Below, in pieces: positions 31,359 through 51,314 of a stretch of DNA of 64,000 nucleotides; within the stretch, counting starts at the first letter, position 1; the number at the start of each line of letters is the position of its first letter. The notes below the pieces were generated by a model, which was given only the letters and a program-made list of their open reading frames with translations, was not told the DNA's origin and ran no database searches. This stretch comes from Methanosarcina sp. MTP4. GTDB lineage: Archaea > Halobacteriota > Methanosarcinia > Methanosarcinales > Methanosarcinaceae. The stretch is taken from assembly GCF_000970045.1 (NCBI RefSeq), contig NZ_CP009505.1:1-64000 (forward strand), in the 5' to 3' direction. Both the position numbers and the translations under genes were made by a program.

Positions 31359-32729
31359 ATGAATATCACTGAAGAGCTTCTAGAGATCGTTGGCGACCGC
31401 CTCTCTGTCTCGTCTTCGGAACTTTACTGTTATTCTTCCGATGCATCCCAGGTCAAGGGGGTGCCCGATTACGTTGTACGCCCTGAAAGTACGGAAGAGG
31501 TCAGTCGGATTGTCAAACTGGCCTTTGAGCACGAAATCCCGGTAACCGCAAGGGGTGCGGGAACAGGGCTTGCGGGGGGAGCTGTTCCGGTACACGGAGG
31601 GATCGTGCTCGACCTGTCAGGCATGAACCGGCTCCTTGAAATCGACCTGGACAACCTGCAGGTCGTTGTGGAACCAGGGGTCATTCAGGATACCCTCAAT
31701 GATGTGCTAAAACCCCACGGCTTCTTTTTCCCCCCGAACCCTGGGAGTTCTGCCATGTGTACCATCGGGGGCATGATAGCTTACAACGCAAGCGGGATGC
31801 GCTGCGTCAAGTACGGGACCACACGGAATTACGTCCGGGACCTGGAAGTGGTTCTGGCAGACGGATCTGTCATCCACACAGGCTCGAAAATGTTGAAGTC
31901 GGCGGCAGGGTATGACCTGACCCAGTTGATGATAGGGTCGGAAGGCACCCTCGGGATCGTAACGAAGGCGGGCCTGAAAATAGCCCCTCTTCCGAAAGCC
32001 CGGAAACTGGTCATAGCTGCCTTTGAAAATGCCGAACTGGCCGGAAAAGCTGTTATCAAGATCTTTTCAAACGGAGTCGTCCCTTCGGCCTGCGAGATCC
32101 TGGACAGGGTTTCCCTGCAGGTCTTGAAGCGCTACGACCCGAACCTGGTTCTCCCTGCGGAAGGGGATGTCATTCTCTTTGAAGTGGACGGGACGGAAAC
32201 TTCGGCGCGTGAAGCCGCTGAGCAGGTAATGGATGTCTGTTCCCCGCTGGCCCTGACCATCAAGCTTGCGGAAAGCGAAAAAGAAATGGCTGACATCTGG
32301 GCTGCCAGGAAACTTGTAGGCGCCGCGGTTTCCCGTCTGGACCCGACCAAGACCCGGATCTATGTGGGAGAAGATGTAGGCGTGCCCATGAAACAGATCC
32401 CAAAACTGCTCAGGCGCGTGCAGGAAATCTCCGAGGAGTTCGACCTGCCTGCAATGAAGTACGGGCACATCGGGGATGGAAACCTCCACCTTGCCCTTTT
32501 CATCGATGTCCTGAACCAGGATGAGTGGGACCGCCTGAAAAAAGCGGCGGATAAGGTCCACAGGACTGCAATTGAGCTGGGAGGCACGGTCAGTTCCGAG
32601 CACGGCGTGGGTGCCGCCAGGGGAATGTACATGGAAGCCCAGTGGGGCCCTGCGTTTGAAGTGATGCGGACGATAAAAAAAGCCCTTGACCCGAAAGGGA
32701 TCCTGAATCCGGGAAAGCTTGGGTTGTGA
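31359..32729 (+). CDS. GlcD/D-lactate dehydrogenase-type FAD oxidoreductase
   Basis: This 456-residue flavoprotein has a PCMH-type FAD-binding domain (ARGAGTGLAGGAVPVHGG, ~64-81; PNPGSSAMCTIGGMIAYNA, ~126-144). Its cap domain has KYGHIGDGNLHLALF and SSEHGVGAARG, typical of glycolate oxidase GlcD and D-lactate dehydrogenases. It probably oxidises a 2-hydroxy acid. The next gene encodes the iron-sulfur partner; the two overlap by a GTGA, indicating translational coupling. The physiological substrate and electron acceptor in a methanogen are open. Confidence 0.9.
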   Translation: MNITEELLEIVGDRLSVSSSELYCYSSDASQVKGVPDYVVRPESTEEVSRIVKLAFEHEIPVTARGAGTGLAGGAVPVHGGIVLDLSGMNRLLEIDLDNLQVVVEPGVIQDTLNDVLKPHGFFFPPNPGSSAMCTIGGMIAYNASGMRCVKYGTTRNYVRDLEVVLADGSVIHTGSKMLKSAAGYDLTQLMIGSEGTLGIVTKAGLKIAPLPKARKLVIAAFENAELAGKAVIKIFSNGVVPSACEILDRVSLQVLKRYDPNLVLPAEGDVILFEVDGTETSAREAAEQVMDVCSPLALTIKLAESEKEMADIWAARKLVGAAVSRLDPTKTRIYVGEDVGVPMKQIPKLLRRVQEISEEFDLPAMKYGHIGDGNLHLALFIDVLNQDEWDRLKKAADKVHRTAIELGGTVSSEHGVGAARGMYMEAQWGPAFEVMRTIKKALDPKGILNPGKLGL

Positions 32730-33949
32730 GAGCAATGAAAAATGAAAAAACAAAAAATGAAAATGAAGCTTCAGGGGTAAAAAAACAGGCAGAAATGAAA
32801 GCCGAAGAAGGAACCGAAGCAAAAACCGAGGCAAAAACCGAGGCAAAAACTGAAGCCGAAAAGGAAAAAACCGAAACAAAGCCTTTTGAGGTTGATCGCA
32901 GGTCGGTTTACAAGTGCGTGCAGTGCGGGACCTGCCGCTCGGTCTGCCCGGTCTTTGAAGCCGTAGGCTGGGAGTCTGCCAATACCCGCGGTCGCATGCT
33001 GATTATCAAGAGCCTCCTTGAGGGCAGGGTGCCTTCCGAAGACGTCCTCCCGAGCCTTGCAACCTGTACGACCTGCGGGATCTGCGCTGCTAAATGCCCT
33101 GCCGGGGCAAACCCTCCGGAAGTCGTGGAAGAGGCCCGTTCCGAACTCGTGCGGCTGGGCATCACAACGGAAGGTCAGGAAAAACTCCGCTCAACAATTA
33201 CCGGCACAGGCAACTCCTTTGGGGAAAGCAGGGACCGTCTGCACTGGCTGCCTGAGGCCGAACGCTCGAAGCTCCCTGAAAAATCAGATTACGTCTACTT
33301 CGTGGGCTGTTTCGATTCCTACCGCTATCCCGAATTTGCGAAGAAGACCTTTGAAGTCCTGCAGCACTTCGGAGTCACCCTTCTCCCGGACGAACACTGC
33401 TGTGCCTCTCCTCTTCTCCGCACCGGTTTTAAGCCGGACGCTGAAAAGATCATGGAGCACAACCTGGAGCAGATCAGGAAAGTGGGCGCCCACACGCTCA
33501 TCACGGGCTGTGCCGGCTGCTACACCACCCTGAAGAACAATTACCCCGGAAACCTCAGGGTCATAAGTCTTCCCGAGTTCCTGGCCGAGCACCTGGGCGA
33601 CCTGAAGCTCAAGCATCTCGACCTTAAAGTAACCTACCATGACCCCTGCCACCTTGGCAGGCATAACGGCGTCTATGACGCCCCCCGTGAGGTCATCGAA
33701 GCTATCTGTGAGTTAAAAGAAATGAAAAACATCCGGGAAAACTCCCGCTGCTGCGGCGGCGGAGGTGGAGTCAGGATCGGCTATCCCGACATCTCCCTTG
33801 AACTTGCCAGAAAACGGCTTGAGGACGTGCCCGAGGGCGTGGATTACATCGTCACCTCCTGCCCCCTCTGCGTGCGCAACCTCAGGGACGGAGGCGGAGA
33901 TATCGAGGTCATCGATATCATCGAACTTGTGGCAATGGCGCTGGAATGA
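32726..33949 (+). CDS. GlcF/HdrD-type iron-sulfur protein
   Basis: This 407-residue protein passes electrons from the preceding flavoprotein. After a low-complexity N-terminus (repeated EAKTEAKT, ~30-50) it has two 4Fe-4S motifs, CVQCGTCRSVCP and CTTCGICAAKCP. Two cysteine-rich CCG domains follow: CCASPLL with GCAGCY, and HDPCHLGR with CCGGGGG and SCPLC, as in GlcF, LldE and the HdrB/HdrD subunits of heterodisulfide reductase. It starts at GTG 32726 or ATG 32735. The low-complexity part includes a 15-bp DNA repeat (GCAAAAACCGAG-like), so it may have arisen by repeat expansion. Confidence 0.9.
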   Translation: MRAMKNEKTKNENEASGVKKQAEMKAEEGTEAKTEAKTEAKTEAEKEKTETKPFEVDRRSVYKCVQCGTCRSVCPVFEAVGWESANTRGRMLIIKSLLEGRVPSEDVLPSLATCTTCGICAAKCPAGANPPEVVEEARSELVRLGITTEGQEKLRSTITGTGNSFGESRDRLHWLPEAERSKLPEKSDYVYFVGCFDSYRYPEFAKKTFEVLQHFGVTLLPDEHCCASPLLRTGFKPDAEKIMEHNLEQIRKVGAHTLITGCAGCYTTLKNNYPGNLRVISLPEFLAEHLGDLKLKHLDLKVTYHDPCHLGRHNGVYDAPREVIEAICELKEMKNIRENSRCCGGGGGVRIGYPDISLELARKRLEDVPEGVDYIVTSCPLCVRNLRDGGGDIEVIDIIELVAMALE

Positions 33950-34239: not shown

Positions 34240-34497
34240 ATGGGATGCAGACCGGTTACAATTAAAGATGTCACTCCTGAGGTTTTCAACTGTATGAAGA
34301 AAAAGCTTCAGGGAGCTGGTATCCATGTCCCGCCGGGTAGGAAAGGAGAGCTTTCAGGGCGTGGTATTGTAGCTGATTATGACTGGGACGGGGATTCAAA
34401 GCTTACCGTCACGATCACGGAGAAACCATTCATTATCGGATGTAATGCAGTAGCAGGAAAAATAAAAAATTTCGTGAAGGAATGTCAGAGGAAGTAA
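34240..34497 (+). CDS. Small paralogous protein A1 (unknown function)
   Basis: I do not recognise this 85-residue protein from any named family. It shares the pattern VTPEVFNCMKKKL, AGIHVPPG, GxLSGxGIVADYDWDG, LTVTITEKP and a C-terminal KIKNFVKECQRK with two nearby genes (34931 and 38170), so the three are paralogues. The order of predicted elements (helix, strands, helix) suggests a small alpha/beta cytosolic domain; there is no signal peptide or membrane segment. A very strong ribosome binding site (GGAAGGAGGAAAG) sets the start and suggests high expression. Confidence 0.82.
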   Translation: MGCRPVTIKDVTPEVFNCMKKKLQGAGIHVPPGRKGELSGRGIVADYDWDGDSKLTVTITEKPFIIGCNAVAGKIKNFVKECQRK

Positions 34498-34930
34498 GGA
34501 AAGCGAAGGGTAATTAAAGAAAGTTGAGAGGAAATTGAAGAAGAGACAAACTTCAAAATTTTATTCCTTAAGTAATTTTCGGATATTTAGAAGTTGAGGG
34601 CTTAATTAATTCTTAAGTTTGGTTCATGTATGGAGGAAAAAGATGCAGCAGTCTCTTCCTCTATCCTATCTTACTGTTTTTGCGAAATCCGGCTTTAATT
34701 CTAGAATTTTTTTAAAGAACTCCATAAATTTTTTATACTCTCAAGTGTTACATAATTTTGATTATGTTTGCTTGTGCAAAGGACAGGACCCCCGTCCACT
34801 GCTGTTAGTACCATTTCCTTTTTGGCAGTGTTCCTTTCTGTTGGGTTCACGGCAAACATCCAACCCCCCAATTTCAAAAAACCAGAATGAAAATCCAACC
34901 CTATTAAAACACCAGAAGGAGAAAAAGAAT
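34498..34930. other. Intergenic, left part of segmental duplication
   Basis: From about 34586 this region is duplicated at 36472-36795 (see the duplication entry). Short direct repeat ATGAAAATCC at 34887 matches 35190. An open frame reads from 34619 into the next gene, but the region is shared with non-coding DNA in the other copy, so I read it as leader. Confidence 0.55.
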
Positions 34931-35188
34931 ATGGCATGCAGTCCTGTAACGTTTCACCACGTTACACCCGATGTATTCAATTGTATGAAAAAGAAACTCG
35001 AAGAAGCCGGTATCCACGTTCCCTCCGGAAACAAGGGCGAACTTTCGGGACACGGTGTGGTAGCCGATTTTGACTGGGATGGTACTTCAAATCTTACCAT
35101 CACGGTCAAGGAAAAACCTTTCTTCATCAGCTGCGGCACTGCAACAGGAAAAATTCAGGACTTCGTACACCAGTGTCATGGGAATTAA
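34931..35188 (+). CDS. Small paralogous protein A2 (unknown function)
   Basis: This 85-residue protein is the same length as the one at 34240 and about two-thirds identical: VTPDVFNCMKKKLEEAGIHV, GNKGELSGHGVVADFDWDG, LTITVKEKPFFISC and KIQDFVHQCHGN. Conserved Cys residues near the N-terminus (NCMKKK), in the second half (SCGTATG) and near the C-terminus could bind a metal or form redox pairs, but nothing proves this. The ribosome binding site is AAGGAGAAAAAGAAT. I start at ATG 34931 because the paralogue starts there; the frame is open further upstream. Confidence 0.82.
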   Translation: MACSPVTFHHVTPDVFNCMKKKLEEAGIHVPSGNKGELSGHGVVADFDWDGTSNLTITVKEKPFFISCGTATGKIQDFVHQCHGN

Positions 35189-35608
35189 AATGAAAAATCC
35201 AGGGCAGGGGATCTTCCCTGTCCTCGCCTCTTTAAAAATACATCTTTTTAAAAATGAATTGTTTTCTAAAAAATGTCTCATCCCGGGTTCTGGATGCGGA
35301 AATTTTCTTTTCTCGTATTCCGGGCAATCAGGGTATTTATTCTGTCGTCATTCCGGATGATTAAGGGGAATCTGAATACGCTTGACTCGAAAATTTGTTC
35401 CAAAGAAAAGCTACTTTTTAAGCTCTACAGATTTAAGGAATTTTGTTATCTTTTCTTTAAACAGATATCAATGTTCAGTAGCGTTTTTACTTAATTTTGT
35501 TTCTCATATTCTTTTCTACATACTTGTATTATTTTATTATGTGTATAAAACGACTATTATAAAACATATAGTCCAGAAGAACATTTTTTTTATTAAATCT
35601 GAAGAAAA
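35189..35608. other. Intergenic spacer, duplicated at 36800-37208
   Basis: An AT-rich spacer between the small gene and the secreted-protein gene, matched in unit 2 of the segmental duplication. It contains TATA-like elements (CATATTCTTTTCTACATACT, 35506) and GTGTATAAAACGAC shared by both copies. No gene is visible. Confidence 0.5.
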
Positions 35609-36235
35609 ATGTTTTTACTGGATCTTTTATCCAAAGGGGGTATACTTATAAAAAAGATAAGGTTTGCAGTACCTTTAGCATTATTGCTGGCTTTACTGGT
35701 TTCAATACCAGGAGCCTCAGCGTCCTCTGTTGATGTCAAACCGGCCTCATGGCCCAATTCCATCAACGTGTGCAATAACGGAGTCATTCCTGTGGCTTTT
35801 GCATGTCCCTACAGGGGTCTTACGGCCGAGGATTTAATAAATGATACCTGTAAGATCCAGGTTGCAATTAAAGTTGAAAATGAAAGCGGCTGGGATGTTG
35901 AGTTTTGTGAGAACTTCTCCTCTGATGATTTAAAACTCAACATTGAAGATGTGACAAGCTATGTGAGTTATGTCGTGGACAGAGGAGATCCCGATTATTG
36001 TCCCGATGGTTACCCGGACCTCACAATGAAATTCAGGACCCACGACATCTTTGGCGGTATTAATCCCGCTGATTATGAGGAAGGCAAAGCCATTGAATTT
36101 GAGATGTGGGGATACGACTGTGACGACAATTTGCTCTTTAATTCATTTGACCGTATTCGCTTCGTGCCGGCAAATTGCGACAAAGTTGACAATCCTATGA
36201 AACTAAAACATGAGAAGCTAAAAATGAGAAGCTAA
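35609..36235 (+). CDS. Secreted paralogous protein B1 (unknown function)
   Basis: This secreted protein of ~195-208 residues has a signal peptide (RFAVPLALLLALLVSIPGASA) and a mature start VDVKPASWPNSINVCNNGV. That stretch resembles the (I/V)KPGSxPNxIN motif found near the start of many secreted archaeal and bacterial proteins. A Cys- and Asp-rich body follows (DRGDPDYCPDGYPDLTMKF, FNSFDRIRFVPANC). The start is odd: in the paralogue ATG stands where this gene has ATA (35648-35650). Translation must then use ATA or the ATG at 35609, upstream of the shared GGGGG ribosome binding site. Function unknown. Confidence 0.75.
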   Translation: MFLLDLLSKGGILIKKIRFAVPLALLLALLVSIPGASASSVDVKPASWPNSINVCNNGVIPVAFACPYRGLTAEDLINDTCKIQVAIKVENESGWDVEFCENFSSDDLKLNIEDVTSYVSYVVDRGDPDYCPDGYPDLTMKFRTHDIFGGINPADYEEGKAIEFEMWGYDCDDNLLFNSFDRIRFVPANCDKVDNPMKLKHEKLKMRS

Positions 36236-37247
36236 AAATGAGAAGCTAAAAAATGAAAAGCTAAAAAAGATAATTTGGCAGAAAATTGTCACTCCGGACA
36301 GGAAAATACAAGTGTGAATTGACTTTCAATGCTTTCCTCATATCATGGAATTACTTACTTTTCCTGCCCTGTCTTTTTTCTTTTCACCGGACATTTTTCA
36401 GGCATCTCCTTCAAAATGCTGTTCTTTCATCTGTTTAATCTGTTTTGATTGATTCCAGGCTTTTGAATTTTTTAGAAGTTATAGATTCGATTAATGTCTT
36501 AAGTTTGGTTCATATAGCTAGGAAAAAGGTGCAAATGTATTTTCCCGTATTCCATCATACTGTTTTTCCGAAAATTTGGTGTTAATTTTGGAATTGTTCT
36601 CAAAAAACCCCTTAATTTTTTATACTGTAAAGTGTTAAATAATTCTGGTATTTTTGAATGTGCAAAGGACCGGCCCCAGTCTACTTTTGTTATGCCCAAA
36701 TTTTCTTTTCGGCAGTATTCCTTTCCGTTGAGTTGCGCGGCAAACATCCAACCCTCCCAAGTTTTCAAAAAAACAACATGGAAAATCCGGGACATGGAGT
36801 CCCCCCATCCTCGCCTCTTAAAAATATATCTTTTTAAAAAATGAACGATTCTCTAAAAACGTCTCATCTTCCAGATCCGGGGGGAAGGTTTTCGGGAAGT
36901 TATTTTGCCTCTGATTCAGGATGATCAGGGTATGCGGAACGAAACTGAAAGTGTGGGATAGCCAGGCATGTAACACCTGAAATCGTACCCGAAAATTCGT
37001 TCCAAAGAAAATCAGCTTTTTGAACTCTACAGATTCAAAGAATTTTATATTTTTCTTTAAAAAAAATACCAACGTTTAGTAGTATTTTTTATTAATTCTG
37101 TTTCTCATATCCTTTTTTACATACCGGTATTATTTTACTATGTGTATAAAACGACTGGTATAAAAAAACAAATCAGATGAACATTTCTTCCACGAATTCT
37201 GTAAAAAATGTTTATTCTGGTTCCTATGTCCAAAGGGGGGTATAAAT
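36236..37247. other. Intergenic, unit 2 leader without its small gene
   Basis: About 1 kb without a gene. The first part (to ~36470) follows the secreted gene and includes an AAAAATGAGAAGCTA repeat. The remainder is the second copy of the duplicated leader and spacer; the small paralogous gene expected near 36780 is missing. TATA-like elements precede the next gene. Confidence 0.6.
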
Positions 37248-37835
37248 ATGAAAGGTAGAAAATTTGCTGTACCTTTAGCATTATTGCTAGCTTTACTGAT
37301 TGTCATACCAGGCGCCTCAGCCTGTGACGTTGACGTCAAACCGGGTTCATGGCCGAATTCCATTAATGTATGCAACAACGGGGTACTTCCTGTAGCATAT
37401 GCATGTGAAGATGACCTAGAGGCGGAGTGCTATAAAGAAAATGTTCGTACTATTAAAGTTGTAATTGAGGTTAAGAATGGAAGTTGCTGGTATACTGAAT
37501 TTGATCAAAATTTCTCGTATCTTGATTTAAAGCTCAATGTTGAAGATGTGACAAGGTATGTAAGTCATGTCTGGGACAGAGGAAATTGCAGTTACATCGG
37601 TCCTGACGGTTGCCCGGATCTCACCATGAAATTCAGGACTCAGGATATCTTTGGCTGTATTAATCCTGCTGATTATGAGCAGTGTGAAGCCGTTAATTTC
37701 CGGGTTTATGGATACGACGGTTGTGGTAAGGAACTCTTTAACTCATTTGACCGTATCCGTTTCGTGCCTGCAAACTGCAAAGAAACGCCTGCAAACTGCA
37801 AAGAAGTAAACAATGAGAAAAAGCCGAAAAAATGA
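37248..37835 (+). CDS. Secreted paralogous protein B2 (unknown function)
   Basis: This 195-residue protein is the paralogue of the gene at 35609. It has a clean signal peptide (KFAVPLALLLALLIVIPGASA) cleaved before CDVDVKPGSWPNSINVCNNG. Its body matches B1 through DLKLNVEDVTRYVSHVWDRG, GPDGCPDLTMKFRTQDIFG and LFNSFDRIRFVPANCK. It is richer in Cys than B1 (about 13 in the mature protein), suggesting disulfides or metal binding at the cell surface. The tail holds a short duplication (ANCKETPANCKEV). GGGGGGTATAAAT before the ATG is the likely ribosome binding site. Confidence 0.82.
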   Translation: MKGRKFAVPLALLLALLIVIPGASACDVDVKPGSWPNSINVCNNGVLPVAYACEDDLEAECYKENVRTIKVVIEVKNGSCWYTEFDQNFSYLDLKLNVEDVTRYVSHVWDRGNCSYIGPDGCPDLTMKFRTQDIFGCINPADYEQCEAVNFRVYGYDGCGKELFNSFDRIRFVPANCKETPANCKEVNNEKKPKK

Positions 37836-38169
37836 TGGATCAGAGGGATTTTTTATTCCGGCAGGAAAATGCAAATATATAATTGATGAGGGGCACTTTC
37901 CCTGAAATTATATAATTTGCTTATTTTTCTGCTCTCTTTTTCTTTTCATTGGATTTTATTGTATTCTGCTTAGGGTCAGGTTGAGGTCATTTTTTATAGT
38001 CCCAAACGTTAATAAAATTCTATACTATGTTGTAAACGGCAGAAAAACCGGGACAGTTTGTGGAAAACTTAACTTCATTTTGTTTTTAATGCGTCCCTGA
38101 ATTCACAGCTACCTATGGATAGTCGATTGGAATACTGGAAAATAAGAGAAAACAGGAAGGAAACCGGAC
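37836..38169. other. Intergenic, AT-rich
   Basis: AT-rich sequence between the second secreted gene and the third small paralogue. Near 38142-38170 purine-rich ACAGGAAGGAAACCGGAC is the probable ribosome-binding region of the next gene. No gene is visible. Confidence 0.4.
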
Positions 38170-38451
38170 ATGACCGGAAGGAGATTGGAAGAGGAAGGGT
38201 GCCGGGGGATCAGGTTTAAAAATGTGACTCCGGACGTATTTAAGTGCATGAAGAAGAAACTTGAGGAATACGGGCTGGAGGTCTCGCCCGGAAATTCCGG
38301 TGTACTTGAAGGAAAAGAGATAGTTGCCCACTTTACCTGGGACGGGGAAGAACATCTGGTAATTGAGGTCAAGGAAAAGCCCTGGCATCTCTACTGCGGA
38401 GCATTGAGTGGGCAAATGAGGGCTTTCATGCGTGAGTGCCAGGGGAGATGA
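38170..38451 (+). CDS. Small paralogous protein A3 (unknown function)
   Basis: This 93-residue protein is the third and most diverged member of the small family seen at 34240 and 34931. It keeps VTPDVFKCMKKKLEEYGLEV, GNSGVLEGKEIVAHFTWDG, LVIEVKEKPWHLYCG and a C-terminal MRAFMRECQGR. Its N-terminus is longer by about eight residues (MTGRRLEEEGCRG). The conserved Cys in the KCMKKK segment and the YCG motif match the paralogues. It is outside the segmental duplication, so the family expanded more than once. Function unknown. Confidence 0.82.
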   Translation: MTGRRLEEEGCRGIRFKNVTPDVFKCMKKKLEEYGLEVSPGNSGVLEGKEIVAHFTWDGEEHLVIEVKEKPWHLYCGALSGQMRAFMRECQGR

Positions 38452-38574: not shown

Positions 38575-38790
38575 ATGAGACAATTCCTCGTATCTATTAC
38601 AAAAGAAGACGACTTCTTTATCGCAAGATGTCCCGAGCTTAATGTTACTTCTCAGGGAGAAAGCCTTGAAGAAGCAGAAAAAAATATCAAAGAAGCCATA
38701 GAGCTCTACATCGAGAGTTTTGGAGTCGACGATCTTCCGCAAAAAGTGTCCAAGCCTTATATCACTTTTGTGGAAGTTGCCCATGCCTAA
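38575..38790 (+). CDS. hicB: HicB-family antitoxin
   Basis: This 71-residue protein has the HicB/UPF0150 fold: LVSITKEDDFFIARCPEL followed by TSQGESLEEAEKNIKEAIEL. In HicAB systems HicB neutralises the mRNA-cleaving toxin HicA and binds DNA when it carries an extra domain, which this short form lacks. The ATG at 38575 has GGAG six bases upstream; a TTG four codons earlier is possible. Its last 8 bp overlap the start codon region of hicA (ATGCCTAA), so the two are translationally coupled. Order is antitoxin first. Confidence 0.85.
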   Translation: MRQFLVSITKEDDFFIARCPELNVTSQGESLEEAEKNIKEAIELYIESFGVDDLPQKVSKPYITFVEVAHA

Positions 38791-39061: not shown

Positions 39062-41179
39062 TTACCTTTTTCTTCTCCTTATCAAACAGTTCCAGGCATT
39101 TCCCACAAGGTCCAGTCTCCCCGTTCTTTCCAGGGCCTCATATACAAGGTCGTAGTTTGCAGGGTTCCTGTAGTGCATAAGGGCTCTCTGCATGGCTTTT
39201 TCTTTCTTGCCCCGCGCTACGTAGACCTTTTTGCCGGTGAAGGGGTTGATCCCTGTATAGTACATGCAGGTGGATACCGTCATCGGGGTGGGGGTGAAGT
39301 CCTGGACCTGTTCAGTGTACCCGCCGTGGTCCCGCATGTATTCGGCCATCTCGATCATGTCTTCCAGGGTGCAGCCCGGGTGGCTGGACATCAGATAGTT
39401 AACTATGTACTGTTCTTTGCCGCATTTTTTGTTGAGGGTCTCGAACTTTTCGGCAAAGCGTTCGTAGATTTCCCTGTCAGGCTTGCACATAGCATCCGTG
39501 ACCCGTTTTGAGAAATGTTCGGGGGCGACCCTTAGCTGCCCGCTGATGTGGTGGGCGCAGAGTTCTTCCAGATACTCCTCGTTTTTAAGGGCAAGGTCGT
39601 AGCGAACGCCGTAGCCGGTAAATACTTTTTTAACTCCGGGAAGTTCCCGCAGGCAGCGCATGAGTTCGAGCAGTTTTTGATGGCTTGTGTCCAGGGCAGG
39701 GCAGATGCCGGGGTGCAGGCAGGCTTTGTCCAGGCAGGCGCCTTTTTTCTCCCAGCTTTTGCAGTCCATGCCGTACATATTGGCAGTGGGGCCGCCGACC
39801 CCGTTGATTATGCCCTTGAAGCCCGGCTTTTCCGTAAGCTTTTTTGCCTCCCTGAGGACTGACTCGATGCTCCGGCTCGCTATCATGCGTCCCTGGTGCT
39901 GGGTGATGGAACAGAAGGAGCAGCCGCCGAAGCAGCCCCTGTGTGTTGTCAGGGAAAACTCGACCATCTCAAGGGCAGGGACGGGTTCTTTGTAGGAGGG
40001 GTGGGCTTCTCCTGTGAAAGGCAATTCATAAACGTGGTCCAGTTCTTTTTCGTTCAGGGGGCGCATGGGGCTGTTCTGCACGATCACGGTCTTGGGGTGG
40101 GGCTGGACAACGCCTTTTCCCGTGACCGGGTTCTGCTCCAGGAAGTACATACGGAAAGCTTTTGCAAAGGCGGCTTTTTCCTGGGAAACTTCGGTAAAGG
40201 AAGGTATTTCAACGTGTTTTTCAGTGAATTTTTCAGCGGGTTCCTCAATGGATCCTTCAGTGGATCCTTCAGTGGATTCTTCAGCGGGTTCCTCAATGGA
40301 TCCTTCAGTGGATCCTTCAGTGGATTCTTCAGCGGGTTCCTCAATGGATTCTTTAGTGGAAGGATTATTTTCGGCTTTTTTTGCCTTCCATTCCTTAACT
40401 TCCATTTTCCAGGCAGTGCCGGGGATGTCCCGGATCTCCCTGACGTTTTCCCCTGCCTGCAGCCTCCTCGCAATCTCGGTGATCTGCAGTTCCCCCATGC
40501 CGTAGACCAGCAGGTCGGCGGGGGCATCTGCCAGAATTGACTGCCTGACCTTATCCGATAGATAATCGTAGTGGGCAAAGCGCCGGAGGGATGCCTCAAT
40601 TCCCCCTAGCACGATCGGGACGTCAGGGCAGGCTTCCTTTATCCTGTTCGAGTAGATAATCACGGCGCGGTTAGGGCGAAGCCCTGGCTTGCCCCCGGGG
40701 GAATATGCGTCCTTTGCCCGCGGTTTCAGCCCTGCGGTCAGGTTGCTGACCATGGAATCCGTGTTCCCTGCGCTTACGGAAAAAAAGAGCCTGGGCTTCC
40801 CCAGTTTTTTGAAATCCTCGGGGCTGTTCCAGCGGGGCTGGGCAATAATCCCTACCCTGAATCCCGCGTCTTCAAGCACCCTGCCCACAATTGCGGTCCC
40901 GAAACTGGAGTGGTCCACGTAGGCATCCCCGGTGACAAGGATTATGTCAAGTTCTTCCCAGCCCCGCACTTTTGCCTCGTCCAGGCTCATGGGGAGGAAT
41001 TTTGAAACGGGAACATTGTGTATGTTGGGCATAGGAGATTTGGCACCTTTTGCCGCTTTTATCCCGGTTTTTTCTCTGGTTTTTGTCCCGGTTTTTCCCT
41101 TCTTTTTTCTTTCATATTCTGCTTTTTTTGCGGCGGAAGGTTCCGGGTTCCTGTAGAATTTTTTCCCTGGATTTTTCAT
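39062..41179 (-). CDS. YgiQ-family radical SAM protein
   Basis: This 705-residue protein matches the YgiQ family. An N-terminal cobalamin-binding-like region (FLPMSLDEAKVRGWEELDI, DAYVDHSSFGTAIVGR) is followed by a radical SAM domain with the cluster motif CFGGCSFC (first Cys near residue 416). The biochemical role of YgiQ is not established. The N-terminus is a Lys-rich extension of ~50 residues. A low-complexity insertion at ~275-320 (repeated GSIEEPAEESTEGSTE) is encoded by a 48-bp tandem repeat at 40232-40360. The 3' end is AT-rich spacer after hicA. Confidence 0.88.
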   Translation of the reverse strand: MKNPGKKFYRNPEPSAAKKAEYERKKKGKTGTKTREKTGIKAAKGAKSPMPNIHNVPVSKFLPMSLDEAKVRGWEELDIILVTGDAYVDHSSFGTAIVGRVLEDAGFRVGIIAQPRWNSPEDFKKLGKPRLFFSVSAGNTDSMVSNLTAGLKPRAKDAYSPGGKPGLRPNRAVIIYSNRIKEACPDVPIVLGGIEASLRRFAHYDYLSDKVRQSILADAPADLLVYGMGELQITEIARRLQAGENVREIRDIPGTAWKMEVKEWKAKKAENNPSTKESIEEPAEESTEGSTEGSIEEPAEESTEGSTEGSIEEPAEKFTEKHVEIPSFTEVSQEKAAFAKAFRMYFLEQNPVTGKGVVQPHPKTVIVQNSPMRPLNEKELDHVYELPFTGEAHPSYKEPVPALEMVEFSLTTHRGCFGGCSFCSITQHQGRMIASRSIESVLREAKKLTEKPGFKGIINGVGGPTANMYGMDCKSWEKKGACLDKACLHPGICPALDTSHQKLLELMRCLRELPGVKKVFTGYGVRYDLALKNEEYLEELCAHHISGQLRVAPEHFSKRVTDAMCKPDREIYERFAEKFETLNKKCGKEQYIVNYLMSSHPGCTLEDMIEMAEYMRDHGGYTEQVQDFTPTPMTVSTCMYYTGINPFTGKKVYVARGKKEKAMQRALMHYRNPANYDLVYEALERTGRLDLVGNAWNCLIRRRKR
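40232..40360. repeat. 48-bp tandem repeat inside the YgiQ gene
   Basis: Nearly three copies of a 48-bp unit (starting TTCAGCGGGTTCCTCAATGG) lie in frame, so that each adds 16 residues. Within the unit GGATCCTTCAGT and variants repeat at 15 bp. Copy-number change would alter protein length without breaking the frame. Confidence 0.9.
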
Positions 41180-51087: not shown

Positions 51088-51159
51088 GCCAAGGTGGCGG
51101 AGCGGCTACGCAATCGCCTGCAGAGCGATTCCATTCCGGTTCGAATCCGGACCTTGGCT
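51088..51159 (+). tRNA. trnC: tRNA-Cys(GCA), copy 1
   Basis: A 72-nt cloverleaf has acceptor stem GCCAAGG/CCTTGGC and discriminator T, the usual Cys identity base. The anticodon loop CTGCAGA holds GCA, and GGTTCGAAT is the T loop. A TATA box (ACTTATATATGA) lies ~45 bp upstream. Confidence 0.97.
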
Positions 51160-51242: not shown

Positions 51243-51314
51243 GCCAAGATGGCGGAGCGGCTACGCAATCGCCTGCAGAGCGATTCCATTCCGGTTCGAA
51301 TCCGGATCTTGGCT
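51243..51314 (+). tRNA. trnC: tRNA-Cys(GCA), copy 2
   Basis: It is identical to copy 1 except for the last pair of the acceptor stem (GCCAAGA/TCTTGGC), a compensated change. It has its own TATA box (TATTTATATATAATG) upstream, so it is separately transcribed. The short spacer and identical bodies indicate tandem duplication. Confidence 0.97.

Follow-up and report, generated by a model that had tools for sequence, protein, structure and literature searches.

MtrI (MM_2401) from Methanosarcina mazei is a helical protein of 68 amino acids (aa) with an N-terminal zinc ribbon of four cysteines, and is reported to be redox-dependent (PMC12774963). The same report presents it as an example of the small proteins that act on central steps of methanogenesis (PMC12774963). 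The DNA stretch considered here (64,000 nucleotides from Methanosarcina sp. MTP4, NZ_CP009505.1, positions 1 to 64,000, hereafter the window) encodes three proteins, s1, s2 and s3, which are like MtrI small cysteine-bearing proteins of Methanosarcinales outside annotation. They differ from it by a predicted alpha-beta fold and dispersed cysteines, and do not have the features that define MtrI in that report. The predicted fold resembles in its arrangement those of KA1, PMM C-terminal, Roc-COR and Pcc1 domains (over 70-83 residues, with Z of about 7-9.3), but these are at most 12% identical to the family, and a search of PDB sequences found no link to them. The three window copies are:

34240-34497, + strand: s1, family member of 85 aa, which groups with the Methanosarcina type A proteins in the tree (94/86)
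34931-35188, + strand: s2, family member of 85 aa, from a separate lineage
38170-38451, + strand: s3, family member of 93 aa, type B, with an extra N-terminal stretch

A new family of small proteins

The three open reading frames (ORFs) of 85, 85 and 93 aa lie where the original prediction, made from the sequence alone, had placed them. Compared with s1, the other two copies show 64% and 47% identity. Four cysteines, C3, C18, C68 and C82, and a CMKKKL stretch are invariant across the three proteins. The conserved cysteines had been announced together with a set of shared motifs, which are less uniform: s1 reads VTPEVF, and s3 carries VLEGKE and TWDG where ELSGxG and DWDG stand in the others. 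A search of the genome with s2 detects the s1, s2 and s3 places alone at E 0.001 (E 2e-58 to 1e-25), and the likeness between them is therefore not due to chance. There is very little doubt that s1, s2 and s3 are real genes of one new family. The s1 and s2 ORFs were taken from an ATG within longer open frames. The ribosome binding site of s1, AAGGAGG, is strong (a 7-base match) but not, as had been thought, exceptional: matches of at least 7 bases are found for 2 of the 34 long ORFs of the window (best start, first 80 codons).

None of the libraries searched names this family. Pfam gives no family for s1, s2 or s3 at E 1. Over 55 members, whose alignment (A3) was used for library scans, profile and fold prediction, the best Pfam E value is 0.0022 (DUF2909, three members) and the commonest match is Diox-like_N (14 members, best E 0.003), both of which fall short of the curated cut-off and were taken as chance. 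The best NCBIfam matches, with E 0.14 for the three copies and E 0.014 over the 55 members, also fall short of the curated cut-off and were likewise taken as chance. PADLOC has no match for s1, s2 and s3, Rfam none at gathering score, and the three matches of the 55 members among PDB sequences (best E 0.14), which were taken as chance, include no KA1, PMM C-terminal or Pcc1 protein. PHROGs returns no significant whole-domain match for the 55 members (best E 0.00064, with phrog_30553, which matches 22 of them); in one member examined singly, which is not the best-scoring one, the phrog_30553 match covers 23 residues with E 0.019. The PHROG matches were discarded as relatives, those examined singly spanning short stretches only.

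Searches of plasmids and phages with s2 (tblastn) gave no match, and neither did a search of plasmids with a type C query (see below), which held the signal peptide and was devoid of the C-terminal part. Viral contigs scanned with A1, a typed family consensus, P0001 and a copy from a second taxonomic family yielded no relative. Literature searches, including with guessed locus tags, found no work that could be tied to the family. These results support the conclusion that the family is new, and the earlier statement that it matches no named family stands, in the absence of significant matches in Pfam, NCBIfam, PHROGs, PADLOC and PDB sequences.

Distribution, lineages and selection

The search of archaeal genomes that had been proposed as a check finds the family in 45 of 185 genomes of the order, 36 from the taxonomic family of the window and 9 from another one. 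Extending the search to 237 genomes of the class gives these 45 carriers again. Within the window's own taxonomic family, 29 of 100 sampled genomes are carriers: 22 of 22 in genus g8, 4 of 4 in g1 (own genome included), 1 of 2 in g2 and 2 of 2 in g12. All 26 sampled g1 and g8 (Methanosarcina-type) genomes are therefore carriers. The second taxonomic family, which is probably the Methanoperedenaceae, has one copy per genome in nine genomes, away from glcD-glcF (see below); these copies have common neighbours in small groups only. A scan of genome contigs returned eight loci, all named as Methanosarcina(ceae) or as Euryarchaeota metagenome-assembled genomes. A weak match in G217 overlaps a TPR-type ORF in a different reading frame, and Rhizobium matches (E 0.06 or worse) are in frame within nifD where annotated; all of these were taken as chance.

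In the main tree (86 rows; fragments, broken copies and one degenerate B excluded), type B forms a single clade (100/100) which includes s3, and s2 branches separately with a copy from KYL-1 (88/86). By this tree, the window copies are old paralogues in three lineages (A, s2 and B), and not the product of a recent triplication, so that the three copies initially noted do not represent a local amplification.

Type C consists of 13 copies located away from the chromosomal place of A and B. All of them are preceded by a signal-peptide-like stretch, which ends in AQA in 11 of the 13. A stop occurs near the end of L061, and another within L068. Ten C rows form one clade (100/95), next to or inside A. 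L076, which also bears a signal, falls outside this clade, on a long branch within A, and L061 and L068 are absent from the tree; more than one gain of a signal peptide is therefore possible. Since no signal peptide is present in A, B, s1, s2 or the second-family copies, its presence in C is interpreted as a gain. Four distant copies (L069, L070, L075 and L080) are also without a signal-like stretch. The main tree suggests that C is nested within A, but this nesting is not required, since a topology in which A forms a single clade to the exclusion of C cannot be rejected (P value of the approximately unbiased test 0.44, on a tree from which eight long-branch rows were further excluded).

The median pairwise ratio of nonsynonymous to synonymous substitution rates (dN/dS), computed on sets of chosen copies, is 0.12 for A (16 sequences, excluding the clade without C3 and C68; 104 of 120 pairs usable), 0.13 for B (21 sequences, 205/210), 0.26 for C (7 sequences, 19/21), 0.35 for s1 (4 sequences, 6/6) and 0.03 for s2 (5 orthologues, 10/10), which is the most constrained of these sets. 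Such low values indicate that the copies are working proteins under purifying selection.

A distant bacterial relative

An ORF of plasmid pA from the cyanobacterium Kovacikia minuta (L129:2983-3246, in a record without annotation) was first met with the typed family consensus, and was retested with the A3 profile, the consensus being excluded. Over the whole 1.2 Mb plasmid record, the profile detects this place alone (E 5.5e-4). The alignment of A3 with the Kovacikia protein by hhalign has a probability of 87% and an E value of 3.7e-6 over 76 columns, and hmmsearch gives 21.2 bits, compared to at most 8.6 in 5000 shuffles. This domain-long profile match is significant and supports a superfamily with one bacterial sequence; a further plasmid search with the Kovacikia protein returned only itself. 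The protein is 25% identical to s2, and its N-terminus is longer and its loops carry insertions. Of the four cysteines, C18 and C82 are present in the alignment and C3 and C68 are not, which makes C18-C82 the more widely conserved pair (in the A4 alignment, the type C rows L062 and L076 are without the C-terminus).

The A-B pair and its chromosomal place

Matches to A and B occur together beside glcD-glcF in 24 of the 28 stretches fetched around family matches, and ygiQ lies downstream within the stretch in 21 of these 24. The exceptions to the pairing (L040, L098, L099 and L100) have one small gene each. No gene separates A from B in 20 of these 24 stretches, and complete pairs have gaps of 3-103 base pairs (bp); the remaining four stretches, from KYL-1 and three g1 genomes, have s2 and an x-like gene, which encodes a secreted-type protein, between A and B. 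The distance from glcF to A is about 170-410 bp in most stretches, and more where genes intervene. The regions upstream of A align poorly in the 12 loci compared (38% mean identity), but most contain an AGGAGG-type site and a TATA-like stretch rich in T, which suggests that A may have a promoter of its own.

The other features of the window at this place are the following:

31359-33949, + strand: glcD-glcF, coding for a flavin adenine dinucleotide (FAD) oxidase and an iron–sulfur/CCG protein, conserved upstream neighbours
34586-36178, + strand: first copy of a duplicated unit, which contains s2 and x1
35609-36235, + strand: x1, secreted-type protein
36471-37778, + strand: second copy of the duplicated unit, which contains x2 and no small gene
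37248-37835, + strand: x2, secreted-type protein with a signal-peptide-like N-terminus, predicted mostly beta
38575-38790, + strand: ORF of 71 aa with weak UPF0150/HicB-like antitoxin matches, below cut-off
39062-41179, - strand: YgiQ-type radical SAM protein (Radical_SAM_N, DUF3362), conserved downstream neighbour

The order on the + strand is thus glcD-glcF, s1, s2, x1, x2, s3 and the short HicB-like ORF, which has a relative in L035 and in none of the 27 other stretches. It is followed on the - strand by the YgiQ-type radical SAM gene, a metallo-beta-lactamase gene, tatD and a LeuA-type gene. The aligned stretches of the duplicated units are 76-79% identical, and the sequences on either side of s2 both align to about 36775-36788 in the second unit, at a short repeat. 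Either the second unit would have lost its small gene by deletion between repeats, or the first would have gained s2 by insertion.

G084, G088, G074, G082 and G071 have additional B copies, partial or broken, which lie either in the interval from B to ygiQ or on the downstream side of B; this indicates that duplication and decay continue at this place.

The interval between B and ygiQ (or the end of the stretch) holds variable cargo in L087, L088, L089, L090, L091, L095 and L097. Judging the translations by eye, L087, L088 and L090 have transporter-, methyltransferase- and regulator-like ORFs, L087 has an additional reverse-transcriptase-like ORF, and the other variable intervals have unrelated large ORFs.

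Predicted fold and cysteines

Structure prediction, another of the checks initially proposed, was run with AlphaFold2 on A3 and gives an alpha-beta fold, beta-alpha-beta-beta-beta-alpha, with a predicted local distance difference test score (pLDDT) of 84 and a predicted template modelling score (pTM) of 0.65; its matches are generic. A second structural aligner gives Z values of 7-9.3 to KA1, PMM C-terminal, Roc-COR, BamC, Pcc1 and other domains. The top matches, which include KA1, PMM C-terminal and Roc-COR, are tied at Z 8.4-9.3 and come from unrelated families. The best viral fold match is an uncharacterised phage protein of 86 aa (E 0.003, TM 0.63).

Of 55 rows, 49 retain the full set of C3, C18, C68 and C82, and C3 and C68 are jointly lost in three rows of one A clade. 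In the predicted helix 68-83, C68 and C82 lie at opposite ends, about 20 Å apart by helix geometry, which speaks against a single four-cysteine metal site. Two separate pairs, C18-C82 and C3-C68, thus appear likelier in the model than one metal site.

Possible function of the small proteins

The explanation that we put forward tentatively, as possible rather than probable when taken as a whole, is that of a cysteine-stapled docking protein, with A and B co-expressed and one branch re-targeted outside the cell. Each small protein would be a compact docking or adaptor domain with the beta-alpha-beta-beta-beta-alpha arrangement, stapled by C18-C82 and C3-C68. A and B would be made together and would probably act together in the cytosol, as a pair or on one partner, while the C form would do a similar job outside the cell. 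The x genes would code for surface or secreted proteins settling at the A-B place, dispensable for A and B. A further-reaching reading is that of a hitherto unrecognised domain common to archaea and bacteria, in which the co-expressed A-B pair sits at a spot which repeatedly gathers secreted beta-rich genes, one branch is exported after gaining a signal peptide, and one cysteine-stapled module, perhaps switched by oxidation, is thus at work on both sides of the membrane; it seems rather doubtful to us as a whole.

Several observations weigh against the docking protein. The docking role is a guess from the class of the predicted fold, and this fold is, in the model, a common arrangement with generic matches; Foldseek finds nothing at E 0.001 in the PDB (best E 0.024) or in the viral library. 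The cysteine pairing is not clean, C3, C68 and C18 being each lost alone in one row. The A-B pair is not obligate, since B is broken by a stop in G032 and G001 and degenerate in G098, and A is frameshifted in G090. None of the nine second-family loci has any of the window neighbour genes tested. No partner, ligand or expression data were found for the family.

The most serious rival is a redox switch, which we consider unlikely. A and B would be cytosolic thiol sensors, in which the oxidation of two cysteine pairs under air would lead to the binding or inhibition of a redox enzyme such as the neighbouring flavin and iron–sulfur protein GlcD-GlcF. In 24 of 28 stretches, A and B follow glcD-glcF and have its orientation, which agrees with this idea, and so does the retention of the four cysteines in 49 of 55 rows even though A and B have no signal peptide; MtrI provides a precedent for a small protein reported to be redox-dependent in M. 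mazei (PMC12774963). However, about 170-410 bp separate glcF from A in most stretches, and one A clade has lost C3 and C68. As for the distant loci, GlcD and GlcF homologues, 24-31% identical, are found near the C locus L062, and a GlcF homologue near L070, but this is a small point compared to their absence near 25 of 27 distant loci (9 of 9 second-family, 12 of 13 C and 4 of 5 other loci).

It is also quite improbable that A and B are mere passengers, which happen to lie beside an insertion spot that gathers varied cargo and have no link to this cargo. The cargo between B and ygiQ does vary among genomes, as judged by eye from translations, but a passenger status leaves the constraint on the sequences, the paired layout and the retained position of A and B unexplained. 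It is, besides, compatible with the docking protein.

The family offers a strongly selected object in 26 of 26 sampled Methanosarcina-type genomes, with a gene pair that can be deleted and a putatively secreted sister for comparison; Methanosarcina hosts are genetically tractable. To our knowledge, most such small proteins are uncharacterised. With a profile built from the family data, databases could give the group a name and detect its bacterial members.

Secreted-type proteins encoded at the A-B place

The two paralogues that the original prediction called secreted do exist: x1 and x2, both of secreted type, are 63% identical. They are not interleaved with the small genes, since both lie between s2 and s3. 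Pfam has no match for x1 or x2. They belong to a wider group of secreted proteins starting with VDVKPGSxPNSIN, which has members in other genera; these have the motif in common with x1 and x2 and are outside the small family. The fold predicted for x2 is mostly beta (pLDDT 71), with generic immunoglobulin-like matches (best Z 5.9).

The joint system that had been imagined for the small and secreted proteins is supported with respect to location. In g1 and g8, 10 of the 11 x-like matches fall in the glcF-A-B-ygiQ interval, the other one being a weak partial match in G090, and 7 of 25 such intervals hold an x-like ORF, whose position differs: it precedes A, lies between s2 and B, or follows B. 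If lineages are counted as independent, finding x at the A-B place in four of five is very unlikely by chance, a figure which shared descent weakens. The co-occurrence of the genes speaks against a joint system: only 8 of the 26 g1 and g8 genomes have x-like matches and 18 do not, which implies that A and B live without x in most of them. The x-like genes are also present in genera without the small family. The co-location of x with A and B is thus real, and a dependence of one on the other is not shown. An immunity or partner system, in which x would be exported and s2 would guard or help the producer cell, could account for the 10 of 11 matches and for the fact that s2 and an x gene belong to one duplicated unit, but it is very improbable given the 18 of 26 genomes without x, the second unit with x2 and no small gene, the dN/dS of 0.03 for s2, which is not expected of an immunity protein, and the lack of any PADLOC match.

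Where x2 has its start codon, x1 has ATA (35648). Either x1 would use an upstream ATG or an unusual start, or it would be decaying. Among x-like and related secreted genes, the expected start codon is ATT or ATA in 7 of 16 (window 35648, L004, L038, L082, L087, L048 and L050), right after a GGGGG- or GGAGG-type site. There is no ATG, GTG or TTG upstream in frame before a stop in L038, L082, L048 and L050, for which AUU starts, or decay, are possible judging from the reading frames. L048 and L050 (G008 and G033) have an open frame of 519 residues, with a long N-terminal part followed by an x-like region and an ATT at the expected start. A strict scan of 976,414 bases (the fetched loci and the window, overlaps included) returned two such ORFs (L050 and L082), compared to 35 with a usual start.

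Elsewhere in the window, two tRNA-Cys (gca) genes lie in tandem at 51088-51159 and 51243-51314.

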